From NCBI RefSeq assembly GCF_039555535.1, contig NZ_CP154630.1, positions 3,919,001-3,983,000 on the forward strand: a stretch of 64,000 nt of DNA, in the 5' to 3' direction. A model generated the notes under the pieces. That model did no database searches. It was not told the DNA's origin and was given only the letters and a program-made list of their open reading frames with translations. Both the position numbers and the translations under genes were made by a program. This document shows, in pieces, positions 12,531-60,299 of the stretch. The stretch's first letter is position 1; every line of letters begins with the position of its first letter. Origin of the DNA: Stenotrophomonas maltophilia. Lineage in GTDB: Bacteria > Pseudomonadota > Gammaproteobacteria > Xanthomonadales > Xanthomonadaceae.

Positions 12531-12604
12531 CGTTGCCGTCTTCAGATCGGCAACGAAGTGTGGACCGGGATGATGACCGTTGCAAGTATGTGGGTTCGGG
12601 TTCG

Positions 12605-12930
12605 GCAGGGCGGCGCCCTGCACCCGCAGAGGCAACAGCAGAGGCAACATCAGCAGCAACGGCAAAAGCTGATTTCCTGGGGTTGGCGGGGTGGGTCCGG
12701 CTGCGGGGGCACTGTAAACCCGTCCATGGGGGCTTGGTCGCGGCTTGCTCGTGTGCGCTGTCCTGCGCACACGGCAAGACCGGGGTTGGGCGTCCTGCCC
12801 AACCCGCCCGAGGCATGCCTCGGGCCCATGCCGCTCACACCCCCGCAACCGGCCCCACCCCGCCTTCGACAGACCCTGCAGTCTGTCGGAACGGCGTCCT
12901 GCCTTGGTAGGTGTCGACCTTGGTCGACAC
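12605..12930. repeat. Composite inverted repeat, copy A
   Basis: Long structured repeat in the 599-bp gap between the hydrolase and recG. It has a GC hairpin (GGGCGGCGCCC), a CAACAGC/CAACATCAGC stretch, then outer arms GGCGGGGTGGGTCCGGCTGC (about 12683) and its imperfect reverse near 12846-12870 (CAACCGGCCCCACCCCGCC), a conserved core GTAAACCCGTCCATGGGGGC, and inner mini-hairpins (GTGTGCGC, GGGTTGGGC, CCCGAGGC types). It ends at a SMAG palindrome. Copies B and C match in order and sequence. Confidence 0.75.
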
Positions 12931-13085: not shown

Positions 13086-13124
13086 GGGGTCAGATCCCTT
13101 TGCTGCGCAAAGGGATCTGACCCC
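13086..13124. repeat. Perfect 18-bp hairpin of the GGGGTCAGATCC family, copy 1
   Basis: GGGGTCAGATCCCTTTGC, loop TGC, and the exact reverse complement. It begins six bases behind the recG stop codon. It could act as a transcript end or mRNA stabiliser, but there is no T-run. Two relatives lie at 24374 and 43993. Confidence 0.85.
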
Positions 13125-19468: not shown

Positions 19469-22400
19469 ATGCCCTCGATGAGTCGCCGCCAGTTCCTGAA
19501 GGTCACCGGGACAACCCTGGTGGGCTCCAGCCTGGCTTTGATGGGCTTCGCGCCCGGCATCGCGCTCGCGGAGGTCCGGCAATACAAGCTGACCCGCGCG
19601 ACCGAGACCCGCAACACCTGCACGTACTGCTCGGTGGCCTGCGGCATCCTGATGTACAGCCTCGGCGATGGCGCCAAGAACGCCGAGCCGAGCATCTTCC
19701 ATATCGAGGGCGACCCGGACCATCCGGTCAACCGCGGCACGCTGTGCCCGAAGGGGGCCGGCCTGGCCGACATCATCCACAGCAAGTCGCGCCTGCTCTA
19801 CCCCGAGTACCGCGCGCCGGGCTCGAACGAGTGGAAGCGGCTGAGCTGGGACGATGCGCTGGACCGCATCGCGCGGCTGATGAAGGAAGACCGCGACGCC
19901 AACTTCGTGCAGAAGAACGAAGCCGGGCAGACGGTCAACCGCTGGCTGACCACCGGCATGCTGGCCGCCTCGGCCACCAGCAATGAAACGGCGGTGCTGA
20001 CCCACAAGGTCGTGCGCTCCCTGGGCATGCTGGCATTCGACAACCAGGCACGTGTCTGACACGGCCCGACGGTGGCAGGTCTTGCCCCGACGCTAGGCCG
20101 TGGTGCGATGACGAATCACTGGGTCGACATCAAGAATGCCGACCTGATCCTGATCATGGGTGGCAATGCCGCCGAGGCGCACCCGTGCGGGTTCAAATGG
20201 GTAACCGAGGCCAAGGCACACAACAAGGCTCGCCTGATCGTGGTCGACCCGCGCTTCAACCGCTCGGCCGCGGTGGCCGACGTGTACGCGCCGATCCGTA
20301 CCGGCACCGACATCGTGTTCCTGGGCGGCCTGATCAACTACCTGTTGACCGAGGACCGCATCCAGCACGAGTACGTGCTGAACTACACCGACATGTCGTT
20401 CCTGGTGAAGGACGAATTCGCCTTCAAGGACGGCCTGTATTCGGGCTACAACGCCGAGAAGCGCAGCTACGACCGTTCCAGCTGGGACTACGTGTACGGC
20501 GATGATGGCTTCGTGCGCAGCGACCCGACGCTGAAGGACCCGCGCTGCGTCTACACCCTGCTCAAGCAGCACTATGCGCGCTACACCGTGGAGATGGTCG
20601 AGCGCATCTGCGGTACGCCGGCCGACAGCATCCGCCAGATCTGGGACATGATCGCGTCCACCGCCGGCAAGGACAAGGCAATGACCATCCTGTATGCGCT
20701 GGGCTGGACGCAACACTCGATCGGCGCGCAGAACGTGCGTGCCGGCACCATGGTGCAGCTGCTGCTGGGCAACATCGGCGTGGCCGGTGGCGGCATGAAC
20801 GCACTGCGCGGACATTCCAACATCCAGGGCCTGACCGACATCGGCCTGATGTCCGACCTGCTGCCCGGCTACCTGACCCTGCCGAAACAGGACGAGCAGG
20901 ACTACGACGCGTACATCGCAAAGCGCACCCAGAAGCCGCTGCGCGCCAACCAGATGTCGTTCTGGCAGAACTACCCCAAGTTCCACGTCAGCCTGATGAA
21001 GTCGTGGTGGGGCGACGCCGCCACCGCCGACAACAACTGGTGCTTCGACTACCTGCCCAAGCTCGACAAGCCGTACGACATGCTGCAGGCGTACGAGCTG
21101 ATGAACGAAGGCAAGATCCATGGCTACATCTGCCAGGGCTTCAACCCGCTGGCCTCGGCGCCGAACAAGGGCAAGCTGATCAGCGCGTTCTCCAAGCTGA
21201 AGTTCATGGTCAGCATGGACCCGCTGGAAACCGAGACCATCGCGTTCTGGCAGAACCACGGCGCGCTGAACGATGTCGACCCGAGCACGATCCAGACCGA
21301 GGTGTTCCGCCTGCCGACCACCTCGTTTGCCGAGGAGAACGGCGCGGTGGTGAATTCCTCGCGCTGGCTGCAGTGGCACTGGAAGGGTGCCAACCCGCCG
21401 GGCGAAGCGCGCAGCGACATCGAGATCATGTCCGAGCTGTTCCATCGCATCAAGGCGCTGTACGAGAAGGACGGCGGCGCCTGGTGGGAACCGGTGCGCG
21501 ACCTGGCCTGGAAGTATTCCAACCCCGAGGCACCGACGCCGGAAGAGCTGGCGATGGAATACAACGGCAAGGCGCTGGTGGATGTGTTCGACCCGAAGGA
21601 CCCGACCAAGCTGGTGCGCAAGGCCGGCGAGCAGCTGGCCGCGTTCGGCGACCTGCGCGACGACGGCAGCACCTCCTCCGGCTGCTGGATCTACATCGGT
21701 GCCTGGGGCCCGACCGGCAACATGATGGCGCGGCGTGACAACAGCGACCCGACCGGCATCGGCAATACCCTGGGCTGGGCGTGGGCGTGGCCGGCCAACC
21801 GTCGCGTGATGTACAACCGCGCTTCGTGCGACGTGGCCGGCCAGCCGTTCGATCCGCGGCGCACGTTGCTGGCCTGGAACGGCAAGAACTGGGGCAGCGT
21901 GGACGTGCCGGACTTCAAGGCCGACGAAGACCCTGCCGGTGGCATGGGCCCGTTCATCATGAATCCGGAAGGCATCGCCCGCTTCTTCGCCAAGGCCGGC
22001 ATGGCCGAAGGCCCGTTCCCGGAGCACTACGAACCGTTCGACACGCCGCTGCGCAGCAACCCGCTCAGCCCCGGCCAGGCGCAGACGCTGAACAACCCGG
22101 CCGCCCGCGTGTTCGCCAGCGACCGGGCGCAGATCGGCTCGCCGGACGAGTTCCCGCACGTGGCCACCACCTACCGCCTGACCGAGCATTTCCACTTCTG
22201 GACCAAGCACGGCAAGCTCAACGCCATCATCCAGCCCGAGCAGTTCGTCGAGATCGGCGCCGCACTGGCCGACGAGCTGGGCATCAACAACGGCAGCCGC
22301 GTGCGCGTGAGTTCCAAGCGCGGCCATATCGAAGCCGTGGCGATGGTGACCAAGCGCATCAAGGCCCTGCAGATCGATGGCAAGACCGTGCACCAGGTGG

Positions 22401-23465: not shown

Positions 23466-24109
23466 AGTACGCACCGCACCCGCGACAGATCATCCGCTAC
23501 CGCGCGCCGACCCGCATCAACCACTGGATCGTGGCGATCTGCTTCGTACTGACAGCCTTGTCCGGGCTGGCATTGTTCCACCCTGCCCTGTTTCCGCTGA
23601 CGCAGCTGTTCGGCGGCGGACCGTGGACGCGCATCCTGCATCCGTTCATCGGCCTGGCGATGGTGGTGGGCTTTGCGCTGCTGGCGTTCCGCATGTGGCG
23701 CGACAACCTGCCGAGCGCCGACGATGGCAAGTGGATGCGCGGCATGCGCGATGTACTGCGCAACGAAGACGAGCGGCTGCCACCGGTGGGCCGCTTCAAT
23801 GCCGGCCAGAAACTGCTGTTCTGGGCCATCATCGGTTGCCTGTCGGCGCTGTTGCTGACCGGCTTCGTGATCTGGCGGCAGTACTTCAGTCATTTCTTCC
23901 CGATCGGGGTGATCCGGTTCTCGGTGCTTGCCCATGCGCTGTTCGGCTGGGTGCTGATCTGCGCGATCGTGGTGCACATCTATGCGGCGATCTGGATCAA
24001 GGGGTCGGTGCGGGCGATGACGCAGGGCAAGGTGACCTACGGGTGGGCGTACAAGCACCACCGGCAGTGGTTCCGCGACATCCTGCGCGGGCGGCGGGAA
24101 CAGGGCTAG
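23462..24109 (+). CDS. fdnI: Formate dehydrogenase-N cytochrome b556 (gamma) subunit
   Basis: Membrane cytochrome b that takes electrons from FdnH and reduces quinone, 215 aa. Four hydrophobic segments are seen ([81 protein letters not shown]). Candidate haem ligands are the His residues in INHW, LHPFIG, AHALFGW and VHIYAA. The gene starts within the fdnH stop (ATGA), so it is translationally coupled. It ends the first transcriptional group; repeats fill the next 388 bases. Confidence 0.95.
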
Positions 24110-24110
24110 C

Positions 24111-24351
24111 GGCAGGGCCTGCGGCCCTGCACCCGCTTCAGGCCAATGCAACAGCAACAGCGGCTATCCGTAGGACGGCGGGGTGGGTCCGGTTGCGGGG
24201 GACGCCGTAAACCCATCCATGGGGGCTTGGCCGCGGCATCCATGCCGCGGACACCCCCGCAACCGGACCCACCCCGCCTTCGACAGTTTCCTGCGATCTG
24301 TCGGGACGGCTTTCTGCGCTGCTTTTGGTGGGTGTCGACCTTGGTCGACAC
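24111..24351. repeat. Composite inverted repeat, copy B
   Basis: GGGCCTGCGGCCC hairpin, CAACAGCAACAGC stretch, outer arms GGCGGGGTGGGTCCGGTTGC (24179 on) and GCAACCGGACCCACCCCGCC (near 24259-24278), core GTAAACCCATCCATGGGGGC, inner hairpin CCGCGGCAT-CC-ATGCCGCGG, then TTCGACAG, and a SMAG palindrome at 24328-24351. The arms are a perfect 20-bp inverted repeat. It fills most of the gap between fdnI and fdhE. Confidence 0.8.
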
Positions 24352-24373: not shown

Positions 24374-24414
24374 GGGGTCAGATCCGATTTCCTCTGGAAA
24401 ACGGATCTGACCCC
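24374..24414. repeat. Long hairpin of the GGGGTCAGATCC family, copy 2
   Basis: GGGGTCAGATCCGATTTCC, loop TCT and GGAAAACGGATCTGACCCC, one A-A mismatch in an otherwise full stem. It lies 84 bases upstream of fdhE. Confidence 0.8.
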
Positions 24415-28861: not shown

Positions 28862-28957
28862 GGAAGGCATGCGCATCCGGGCATGCGGCTGGGCTTCAAA
28901 CCCAGTAGGGGGCGTCGATCGTTCCCTGGTAGGTTCGACTCCTGCTGCCTTCCGCCA
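28862..28957 (+). tRNA. selC: tRNA-Sec (anticodon UCA)
   Basis: Selenocysteine tRNA of 96 bases with encoded CCA. The acceptor stem is eight base pairs (GGAAGGCA with TGCCTTCC), as in bacterial tRNA-Sec, followed by discriminator G. The anticodon arm is CTGGG-CTTCAAA-CCCAG with anticodon TCA at 28896-28898. A long variable arm (GGGGGC...GTTCCC) and T-loop GGTTCGACTCC are present. It lies between selB and selD on the same strand. Confidence 0.97.
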
Positions 28958-38299: not shown

Positions 38300-38516
38300 A
38301 TGCCGTGCTTGGCGGGGCGGGTGAGCCATGCAGGGGACGCTGCAAGTACGTCCCTGTAAGCTCGATGGCGCCATCCATGGCGCCAACGCCCCTGCATGGC
38401 CCACCCGCCCCACCTTTGACAGTTTCCTGCCGCGTCCAACCACGGAAAAGAAAAAAGAAAAGCAGAAGCGGATCGCTTGCTGCGCTCGCTCTGTGTCGAC
38501 CAAGGTCGACACCTAC
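38300..38516. repeat. Composite inverted repeat, copy D (divergent)
   Basis: Outer arms GGCGGGGCGGGTGAGCCATG (38311 on) and CATGGCCCACCCGCCCC (near 38394-38410), inner hairpin GATGGCGCCATCCATGGCGCC, then TTTGACAGTTTCCTGC and a SMAG palindrome at 38493-38516. It shares the arm ends and tail with copies A-C but not the core. Confidence 0.6.
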
Positions 38517-38622
38517 CAACAGCCGCGCGAACCAACAACCGCAATTGCCAGTAGATCCACGCCATGCGTGGATGATTCATTCGATGTCTGACAGATGTGC
38601 CGACCAACGGTCGGCACCCACC
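38493..38622. repeat. Three SMAG-like palindromes
   Basis: GTGTCGACCAAGGTCGACAC with CTAC at 38493-38516, GTAGATCCACGCCATGCGTG at 38551-38573 and GTGCCGACCAACGGTCGGCAC at 38597-38622. Confidence 0.85.
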
Positions 38623-38828
38623 AACAGCCGCGTGAACCTGTCGAAGGCGGGGCACTGTGGGTTTGCGGGGTGTGAGCCGCATGGATGCGGCGACCAAGCC
38701 CCCATGGACGGGTTTACGGCGTCCCCGCAAACCCACAGTGCCCCGCCATCCCACGGAATGCCCGCTGTTGCTGTTGCTTCGGATGTTGCCCTGGCTTGAA
38801 GCAGGTGCAGGGCTGCAAGCCCTGCCGA
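38597..38828. repeat. Composite inverted repeat, copy C (opposite orientation)
   Basis: Read on the minus strand: GGGCTTGCAGCCC hairpin, CAACAGCAACAGC stretch, arms GGCGGGGCACTGTGGGTTTGC and reverse, core GTAAACCCGTCCATGGGGGC, inner hairpin GCCGCATCCATGCGGC, and TTCGACAG. It lies between the convergent pepQ and pepP genes. The arm sequence differs from copies A and B, but both arms changed together, so pairing is kept. Confidence 0.75.
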
Positions 38829-41477: not shown

Positions 41478-41665
41478 GCGTTCTCTGCGGTACTCGACGG
41501 CATGTGCAAACATTCGCCTTGTCCCTTAAGAACGACACCGGGAGCGCGACAGCGCCGGGAGTGCAGGTCCGCCTTGTAGCGGGAAGCCCGATGGTTCTCC
41601 AGCGTTCCCACTTGAGCCCCCGGGTTCAAGGTCGTTTCGCATGCATCGACATTGCGGAGAATGCA
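41478..41665 (+). ncRNA. ssrS: 6S RNA
   Basis: Regulatory RNA of about 187 nt that mimics an open promoter and holds sigma-70 RNA polymerase in stationary phase. The closing stem pairs GCGTTCTCTGCGG (41478 on) with TTGCGGAGAATGC (to 41664). The 3' half has the hallmark CACTTGAGCCCCCGGGTTCAAG hairpin, like CCTTGAACCAAGGGTTCAAG of E. coli, and the central region around 41530-41620 supplies the large bubble flanked by GC-rich arms. The place between zapA and fau is the classical one. Confidence 0.93.
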
Positions 41666-60039: not shown

Positions 60040-60264
60040 CACGGGATGTGAGAAAACTCCAATCTTCTGTCAGGGAATTCCCGATAGCGATGTTCTGTGA
60101 ACCCGGACACAATTCGAACTGCCAGCCGCAGTACCCGAACCGGTCCTACTCCCCAAGAGGCCATCCCCAAGGGAGCTCATGCTGCGGGGCCCTGAGCAAG
60201 CCCTCTGCTGGCGCCTATGAAACGACACAGGCCTGATCCTCGCGGACCAGGCCTGTGTTTTTTC
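60040..60264 (+). ncRNA. Candidate small RNA ending at a strong terminator
   Basis: A 327-bp gap between mpl and adk (both minus) holds a strong plus-strand Rho-independent terminator at 60226-60264 with no plus-strand gene before it. The segment upstream has several possible stems (GGGAATTCCC near 60074; GCTCA...TGAGC near 60176-60198) and short weak reading frames only. The 5' end is not defined; 60040 is an estimate. No known family recognised. Confidence 0.35.
60226..60264 (+). terminator. Strong plus-strand terminator in the mpl-adk gap
   Basis: ACACAGGCCTG (60226-60236) and CAGGCCTGTGT (60249-60259), with inner TCC/GGA pairs, then six T (60259-60264). On the minus strand the stem is preceded by A6 but followed only by CGTTTC, so it could also end adk weakly. 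Confidence 0.8.
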
Positions 60265-60299
60265 GCCCGAAGGGCCGGCAGCGGGCCGGCCCCGCCGGA

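Follow-up and report, generated by a model that had tools for sequence, protein, structure and literature searches.

A TwoAYGGAY-related repeat dispersed through the genome of Stenotrophomonas maltophilia has a branched RNA-like fold and is a candidate RsmA/CsrA sponge

The genome of this Stenotrophomonas maltophilia contains approximately 140 units of a dispersed repeat (138 covariance model matches and four insert-bearing copies). The structure of the unit, the strand bias of its arms and its CsrA-type loops are well supported. The best reading of the units, to which we give about an even chance of being correct, is that of a dispersed RsmA/CsrA sponge or tether. According to this proposal each unit would be one structured RNA, in which a clamp stem closes a junction holding two short GGA-loop hairpins 23 nt apart. 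Read-through transcription would copy the unit, whose two loops could then hold one RsmA/CsrA dimer, and with most units in divergent pairs, transcription from either side would yield the folded strand. Together the approximately 140 units would form a dispersed RsmA/CsrA sponge in place of a discrete sRNA of the CsrB/RsmZ type. The units would be kept, exchanged and lost, without being demonstrably mobile. The TwoAYGGAY motif and its predicted CsrA binding were already known (PMC4333381), and what is new here is the copy number, the strict divergent pairing, the relation of arms to core, the cassette differences at orthologous sites and the nested inserts.

The window, meaning the whole stretch of 64,000 nucleotides that was analysed, corresponds to positions 3919001-3983000 of a 4.83 Mb single-contig genome. 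All four sites at which the sequence-only reading had placed copies of the repeat (A, B, C and D) were confirmed, and its expectation of further copies was borne out by searches with core patterns and with a covariance model. Two core patterns, allowing at most three mismatches, gave 87 and 38 matches in the genome (125 in all), and a backwards-pattern control gave 0. The covariance model R1, built from 102 of the 125 pattern-found units, gave 138 matches at E<=0.01, six of which score below 45 bits. The working set of 142 units consists of these 138 matches and four insert-bearing copies from the pattern searches; it is a lower bound, with further insert-bearing copies in L112-L115. The features of the window are as follows.

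12604..12621, unstranded: GC hairpin of copy A, gene side
12685..12864, minus strand: RNA unit of copy A, with arms at 12685-12709 and 12840-12864, the hairpin 2 loop within 12719-12730, and hairpin 1 carrying an insert
12745..12826, minus strand: copy A insert 'cargo 1', nested in loop 1, with hairpin loops AGGAC and AGGACA
12865..12891, unstranded: tail hairpin of copy A, TTCGACAG...CTGTCGGAA
12907..12930, unstranded: GTAG-headed palindrome (SMAG-like) adjoining copy A
24111..24130, unstranded: GC hairpin of copy B, one base past the called gene end at 24109
24177..24278, minus strand: RNA unit of copy B, with arms at 24177-24201 and 24254-24278, hairpin 2 at 24204-24226 and hairpin 1 at 24231-24250
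24279..24306, unstranded: tail hairpin of copy B, TTCGACAG...CTGTCGGGA
24328..24351, unstranded: GTGG-headed palindrome (SMAG-like) adjoining copy B
38314..38411, minus strand: RNA unit of copy D, left half of a divergent pair, with arms at 38314-38336 and 38389-38411 (RF01731, 27.4 bits)
38493..38516, unstranded: SMAG-like palindrome, centre of the C/D pair
38551..38574, unstranded: GTAG-headed palindrome, centre of the C/D pair
38646..38747, plus strand: RNA unit of copy C, right half of the divergent pair, with arms at 38646-38670 and 38723-38747
38807..38826, unstranded: GC hairpin of copy C, gene side

One composite plan had been described for all four sites. The four units do exist, but the flank of copy D has neither the GC hairpin nor the CAACAGC stretch, and the full plan is not universal in the genome: a simple pattern search of 121 of the 133 units, which would miss longer spacers, found a GC hairpin on the gene side, at a distance of up to 90 nt, in 55. 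The outer pieces (GC hairpin, CAACAGC stretch and SMAG-like palindrome) accompany many units, not all. The SMAG or GTAG REP palindromes described from the same species (PMC2613905, PMC3733652) are likewise palindromic and often adjoin units; they are short and have a GTAG head, whereas the unit has no GTAG head, has a branched fold and measures 98-102 bp in B, C and D. A further interspersed palindrome, GGGGTCAGATCC...GGATCTGACCCC, lies near copies A and B at 13086-13124 and 24374-24414, and occurs at other unit loci as well.

To describe the fold, 102 of the 125 pattern-found units were kept in an alignment (A2). Units were excluded if they had under 20 Watson-Crick pairs, if their inner length differed from 52, or if their sequence repeated that of another unit; an earlier alignment (A1) was discarded because its arms contained gaps. 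The 102 sequences align gap-free over 86 columns, and in the consensus fold an outer stem of 17 bp encloses hairpin 1 (7 bp) and hairpin 2 (3+3 bp, interrupted by a five-base bulge). It had been proposed that the arms change on both sides together and that a folded structure is under selection, and both proposals are supported by covariation far above chance: paired cells amount to 97.4% in the aligned units and 68.8% in shuffles, double changes number 798 as compared with 263, and the covariation score is 0.670 as compared with 0.166 for shuffles and at most 0.118 for slid structures. Covariation is found in all four helices, with double changes at 26 of 30 pairs. The clamp stem is variable in sequence and has a median of 25 Watson-Crick pairs, and the unpaired loops and five-base bulge are conserved (133 units). 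The fold of copy A has a z-score of -9.95, and 0 of 100 shuffles were equally stable. When the 133 units were folded without constraint, two GGA loops formed in 87, one in 31 and none in 15.

The strand first read proved to be the wrong one. The folded RNA is the reverse complement of the strand taken in the sequence-only reading, as the arm mismatches indicate: across 133 units the 17-bp stem of the folded strand has 44 G·U, 4 A·C and 30 others. On the strand first read, A·C mismatches predominate in the arms of 125 units, with 52 against 5 G·T and 38 of other kinds. An excess of G·U over A·C recurs elsewhere, at 17:2 among 15 units of other genera and S. rhizophila (the 86-nt ones of 19 units), 31:8 among 44 orthologous-site units and 13:4 among 23 units of other families. 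No wobble bias was seen in hairpins 1 and 2 of the 133 units (3:4 and 2:2), where mismatches are few. Transcription-linked mutation bias may contribute to the bias in the arms, but the tenfold excess is probably more than it would give. At the base of hairpin 1, a tandem GA (GA/GA) is found in 37 of 133 units and Watson-Crick pairs in most of the others.

Both apical loops have the form C-[ANGGAN]-G in 127 of 133 units, loop 1 being CATGGATG in 127 of 133, and the loops are spaced 23 nt apart in 125 of these 127 units and 22 nt apart in two. On the opposite strand two such loops were found in 0 of 133 units and one in seven. Outside Xanthomonadaceae two such loops are present in 21 of 23 and 43 of 48 matches, in two sets that share four units. 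RsmE binds hairpins with ANGGAN hexaloops, as does CsrA, whose dimer bridges sites 10-63 nt apart (PMC7652899). The units have both features, namely ANGGAN hexaloop hairpins and two sites at a spacing within 10-63 nt. SELEX with CsrA yielded RUACARGGAUGU (PMC7652899); this exact sequence occurs in 0 of 133 own units and in 2 of 23 and 5 of 48 matches in the overlapping sets from outside the family. Most own units lack, in hairpin 2, the ACA that SELEX gave without exception; NUACANGGAYGU is present in 39 of 133. The csrA gene was found in 41 of 41 genus genomes searched, with one copy in 40 and two in G029. Among the papers listed by a literature search on CsrA sponges as multicopy repeats, none describes such units by its title.

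The repeat had looked new, but its core is a divergent relative of the TwoAYGGAY motif (RF01731). Searched against the genome, RF01731 gave 23 matches at E<=10 with the best 150 of 302 candidates scored, and all 23 coincide with units in the orientation of the folded strand; 22, including the one on copy D, are full-length. One of 14 control genomes gave a match, and none gave one above the cut-off. The gathering score of 43 was reached by one of the 23 own matches (44 bits), the other 22 falling below it. At the gathering threshold with Rfam filters there were 0 matches in 20 loci from other gammaproteobacterial families and 0 in 15 Xanthomonadaceae loci, including L076, the site of the passing match. 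Because the matches mostly lie below the gathering score, the unit is called TwoAYGGAY-related and not a filed member; the family relation is nevertheless strong. The unit shares with TwoAYGGAY, as described by Weinberg 2010 (PMC2864571) and Gardner 2014 (PMC4333381), two hairpins with AYGGAY loops and a poorly conserved outer stem; two apical AYGGAY-type loops in one branched fold were found in 127 of 133 units, and the tandem GA, another TwoAYGGAY trait (PMC4333381), is seen in part of the units. It differs in its high copy number, divergent pairs, variable arms and loop inserts. In these two descriptions TwoAYGGAY is without tested function, CsrA binding having been predicted for it by Gardner 2014 (PMC2864571, PMC4333381), and among the listed papers that name TwoAYGGAY or RF01731 none was, by title, on Stenotrophomonas.

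A second Rfam family, Ysr224 (RF02770), has a consensus that holds the core of the unit on the strand first read. Its best match was 42.7 bits with E 1.1e-6 (8 loci), and copy B scored 29.7 bits; these are below the gathering score of 70, and the strand is opposite to the one indicated by the wobbles. Rfam may thus hold one element twice, on opposite strands. No unit in the window was detected by Rfam at the gathering threshold. When Rfam was searched by E-value, copy A gave one chance-like match below the cut-off, and copy B gave mostly microRNA-type hairpin matches besides Ysr224, all below cut-offs. Rfam also placed 6S RNA at 41479-41664 and sRNA sX11 at 60119-60266 of the window, and a SECIS_3 element (20054-20112) and tRNA-Sec (28862-28953) flank copy B, marking a selenocysteine locus.

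The sponge RNAs CsrB/CsrC and RsmX/Y/Z, which are discrete sRNA genes with their own promoters, sequester CsrA/RsmA through hairpins with GGA loops. The units likewise have GGA-loop hairpins, but with two loops per unit and dispersed across the genome. A parallel within Xanthomonadaceae is RsmU of Xanthomonas campestris, an RsmA-sequestering RNA processed from an mRNA 3' UTR (PMC7694677); it is likened to the unit by its description, not by sequence, and is a single locus, reportedly without an Rfam homologue.

The variable inner hairpins of copy A, thought at first sight to be exchangeable, are indeed so: they are an 82-bp insert (12745-12826) nested after the AUGG of loop 1 and present at 11 own places. 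Three relatives have this insert 1 too, and the hairpin stems that hold it differ in sequence. When copy A is folded, its loops are AGGAC and AGGACA, and similar loops form when L054 and L112-L115 are folded. Of 14 copies, 13 retain the first AGGA (ACGA in L040) and all 14 the second, and the stem of the insert has changes on both sides in L037 and L116. A second insert lies after the ANGG of loop 2 at nine own loci and in one relative, and no more than half of its copies form a small GGA hairpin; both inserts are present in five own units (L054, L112-L115). Inserts break whichever loop they enter; insert 1 exchanges one GGA loop of the unit for two of its own.

The relation of arms to core was compared using units of 84-88 nt only (127 of 133 own units). 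In genomes of other families (G412, G263 and G359) the inner 52 nt are 83-89% identical within a genome, and the 24-bp arms are 94-98% Watson-Crick paired despite being nearly unrelated in sequence. Arm identity is close to the shuffled level, at 0.41 against 0.30 in G412, 0.39 against 0.35 in G263 (a set of 12 that includes one antisense match, L284) and 0.39 against 0.25 in G359, and one arm pair each is at least 75% alike (of 78, 66 and 28 pairs respectively). Such near-unrelated arms around a conserved core were found in three of the five other gammaproteobacterial genomes examined. The exception was G257, with related arms (0.68 against 0.29 shuffled), and in G422, with no more than three units, two resemble each other. 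Arms in the own genome have a mean identity of 0.51 against 0.38 shuffled, and 1427 of the 8001 pairs reach 75% or more. Since cores stay conserved and arms stay paired while arm sequences differ, there are two alternatives: drift of old copies constrained by selection for pairing, or renewal of the stems by another process. That arms are made de novo at insertion was not supported where orthologs exist, the arms being partly common to strains.

At the C/D site, strains of the S. maltophilia complex keep the flanks and have three kinds of left cassette, in which upper arms and core differ together. A unit pair is present in the same intergenic region of S. rhizophila DE0483, with an AT-rich hairpin 1. 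Orthologous loci were also compared for A in 20 genomes, for B in the 16 of 20 that were readable and for the convergent L101 site in the 12 of 20 with the same gene order, and at all three sites cassettes differ at the same place. Among related arms at orthologous sites, restricted to allele pairs with at least 17 of 24 identical pairs, there were 93 distinct column-state differences: 32 are double Watson-Crick changes (13 of transition type and 19 of transversion type), and the rest involve G·U (23), A·C (9) or other mismatches (29). In Stenotrophomonas sp. RAC2 (L137 near 7415), apparent foreign, transposase-like sequence lies within the core of the site-D unit.

These comparisons bear on a rival, though not all rivals are mutually exclusive, in which perfect arms arise from the mutation process itself, by template switching inside the hairpin together with gene conversion, and not mainly from selection on RNA. 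It would account for arms that are 89-98% Watson-Crick across the six genomes examined while differing in sequence, for the double changes, including those of transversion type, and for cassettes that differ between fixed flanks. We consider it fairly unlikely as the main explanation. It does not predict the strand-specific wobble excess, the conservation of unpaired loops and five-base bulge, or the alternation of tandem GA with Watson-Crick pairs at the base of hairpin 1, and some of the 32 doubles may be allele swaps rather than mutations.

The distribution of the units across genomes was used to consider mobility. Among the matches listed, eight of 40 genus genomes had no match, three had one and 29 had at least 12, the highest copy number being at least 112; the eight gave none although csrA is present. 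Matches were found in at least 31 of 119 genomes of the family, the own genome included, and, in the class Gammaproteobacteria, in at least 56 of 321 genomes or, counted by genus, at least 49 of 242, the family and class searches having stricter filters and few candidates scored per genome. Copy counts per genome are lower bounds, the best 150, 112, 37 or 13 candidates per genome having been scored.

This spread, from 0 to at least 112 copies among 40 genus genomes and into at least 56 of 321 gammaproteobacterial genomes, would suit a non-autonomous mobile repeat resembling a REPIN or MITE, mobilised by a RAYT or another transposase, with a fold that serves transposition rather than regulation. 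Copy number correlates with the count of Y1_Tnp (rho 0.71 over 40 genomes) but equally with genome size (rho 0.70), so that RAYT is at most a candidate mobiliser, and Y1_Tnp is present in six of the eight zero-copy genomes (among the matches listed). The orthologous sites also speak against mobility. The site A unit is lost in L221, L222, L223 and L228, and other DNA replaces it in L215, L216 and L219. The site B unit is lost in L220, L223, L227 and L228 and partly in L221, and L222 is without the whole stretch; at the L101 site the left unit is lost in L306 and both units in L307, a deletion, as part of the left arm is retained there. The absences at A, B, C/D and L101 thus resemble deletions, partial losses or replaced DNA, and no clean empty site was seen at the four sites compared, so the earlier suggestion of a MITE larger than SMAG is not upheld by them. 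In addition, arms in G412, G263 and G359 are rarely alike despite conserved cores, and the GGA loops and wobble bias would be left unexplained. We consider a mobile repeat improbable. The replacing DNA at site A in L215, L216 and L219 exceeds 1 kb and is coding-like.

Close pairs of units (<500 bp) number 46, where 2.1 were expected, and include 92 of the 142 units; 46 of 46 are divergent, with RNA strands pointing apart and a median of 278 bp from start to start; C and D form one such pair, the commonest arrangement. Two-unit loci of other genomes are mostly divergent as well (L122, L127, L128, L131, L132, L250, L269, L270, L271, L276, L287 and L292), with a weaker partner (24 to 64 bits) in four of the 12 (L127, L132, L276 and L292); the exception is L297, with a weak second match (39.7 bits) in the same direction. 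By gene calls from a simple codon-usage script (coding density 0.80 at these loci), 0 of 125 cores lie inside a called gene, and the 3' side of the RNA is nearer to the gene boundary in 120 of 124 units, comprising 43 of the 44 single ones and 77 of the 80 in pairs. The boundary faced is a stop in 80 of 125 units and a start in 45. Of the units between genes of the same direction, 32 have the RNA strand in sense and 30 in antisense orientation, which gives no sign of selection for sense placement and argues against a required cis role in sense transcripts.

The avoidance of genes, the orientation of the 3' side and the divergence of all close pairs could also indicate a transcription-end or antisense-barrier element, a stable hairpin that stops or protects transcripts near gene boundaries, with pairs serving both directions. 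We regard this as unlikely. A terminator scan of two sites found no terminator-like match at the units, with one weak match at the centre of the C/D pair where 0.5 were expected; 45 of 125 units face a gene start, and the ANGGAN loop sequence would be unnecessary for such a role.

A dispersed RsmA/CsrA sponge is favoured by the fold, by the wobble bias, by the loops in 127 of 133 units, by the inner 52 nt that stay alike where arms do not, by the GGA loops of insert 1 and by csrA in 41 of 41 genus genomes. Against it stand the lack of a sigma-70-like promoter at the two sites scanned (a scan limited to that promoter type), the near-equal sense and antisense placement, the eight of 40 genomes without units (among the matches listed), the missing ACA, the loops broken by inserts, the AGGA lost from insert 1 in L040, and the unconstrained folds with one GGA loop (31 of 133 units) or none (15). 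We infer transcription, protein binding and sponge action. A more far-reaching version, which we think rather doubtful, is a genome-wide decoy network in which hundreds of GGA loops would replace CsrB-type RNA and structure-dependent copying would keep the core while rebuilding or exchanging stems, so that many loci would have their own perfect arms. The approximately 140 units, divergent pairing, wobble bias and GGA-bearing inserts make the CsrA hypothesis directly testable. If true, it would supply an RsmA sponge in Xanthomonadaceae, a family in which a BLAST search by Tang et al. 2020 for a CsrB/RsmB-type homologue in Xanthomonas found none (PMC7694677). A repeat with a conserved core and locus-specific arms also bears on the evolution of palindromic repeats.

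It is very unlikely that the unit instead acts as a hairpin of single-stranded DNA that an enzyme recognises, in the manner of integron attC sites, with free sequence, fixed structure and one strand used; near-arbitrary arms around a fixed core and the one-strand wobble bias would fit, but the loops match the site of an RNA-binding protein and insert 1 repeats the GGA loops.

Long runs of G and N were observed at unit positions in the draft assemblies L309 and L152, which suggests that the hairpins of the units disturb assembly or sequencing.
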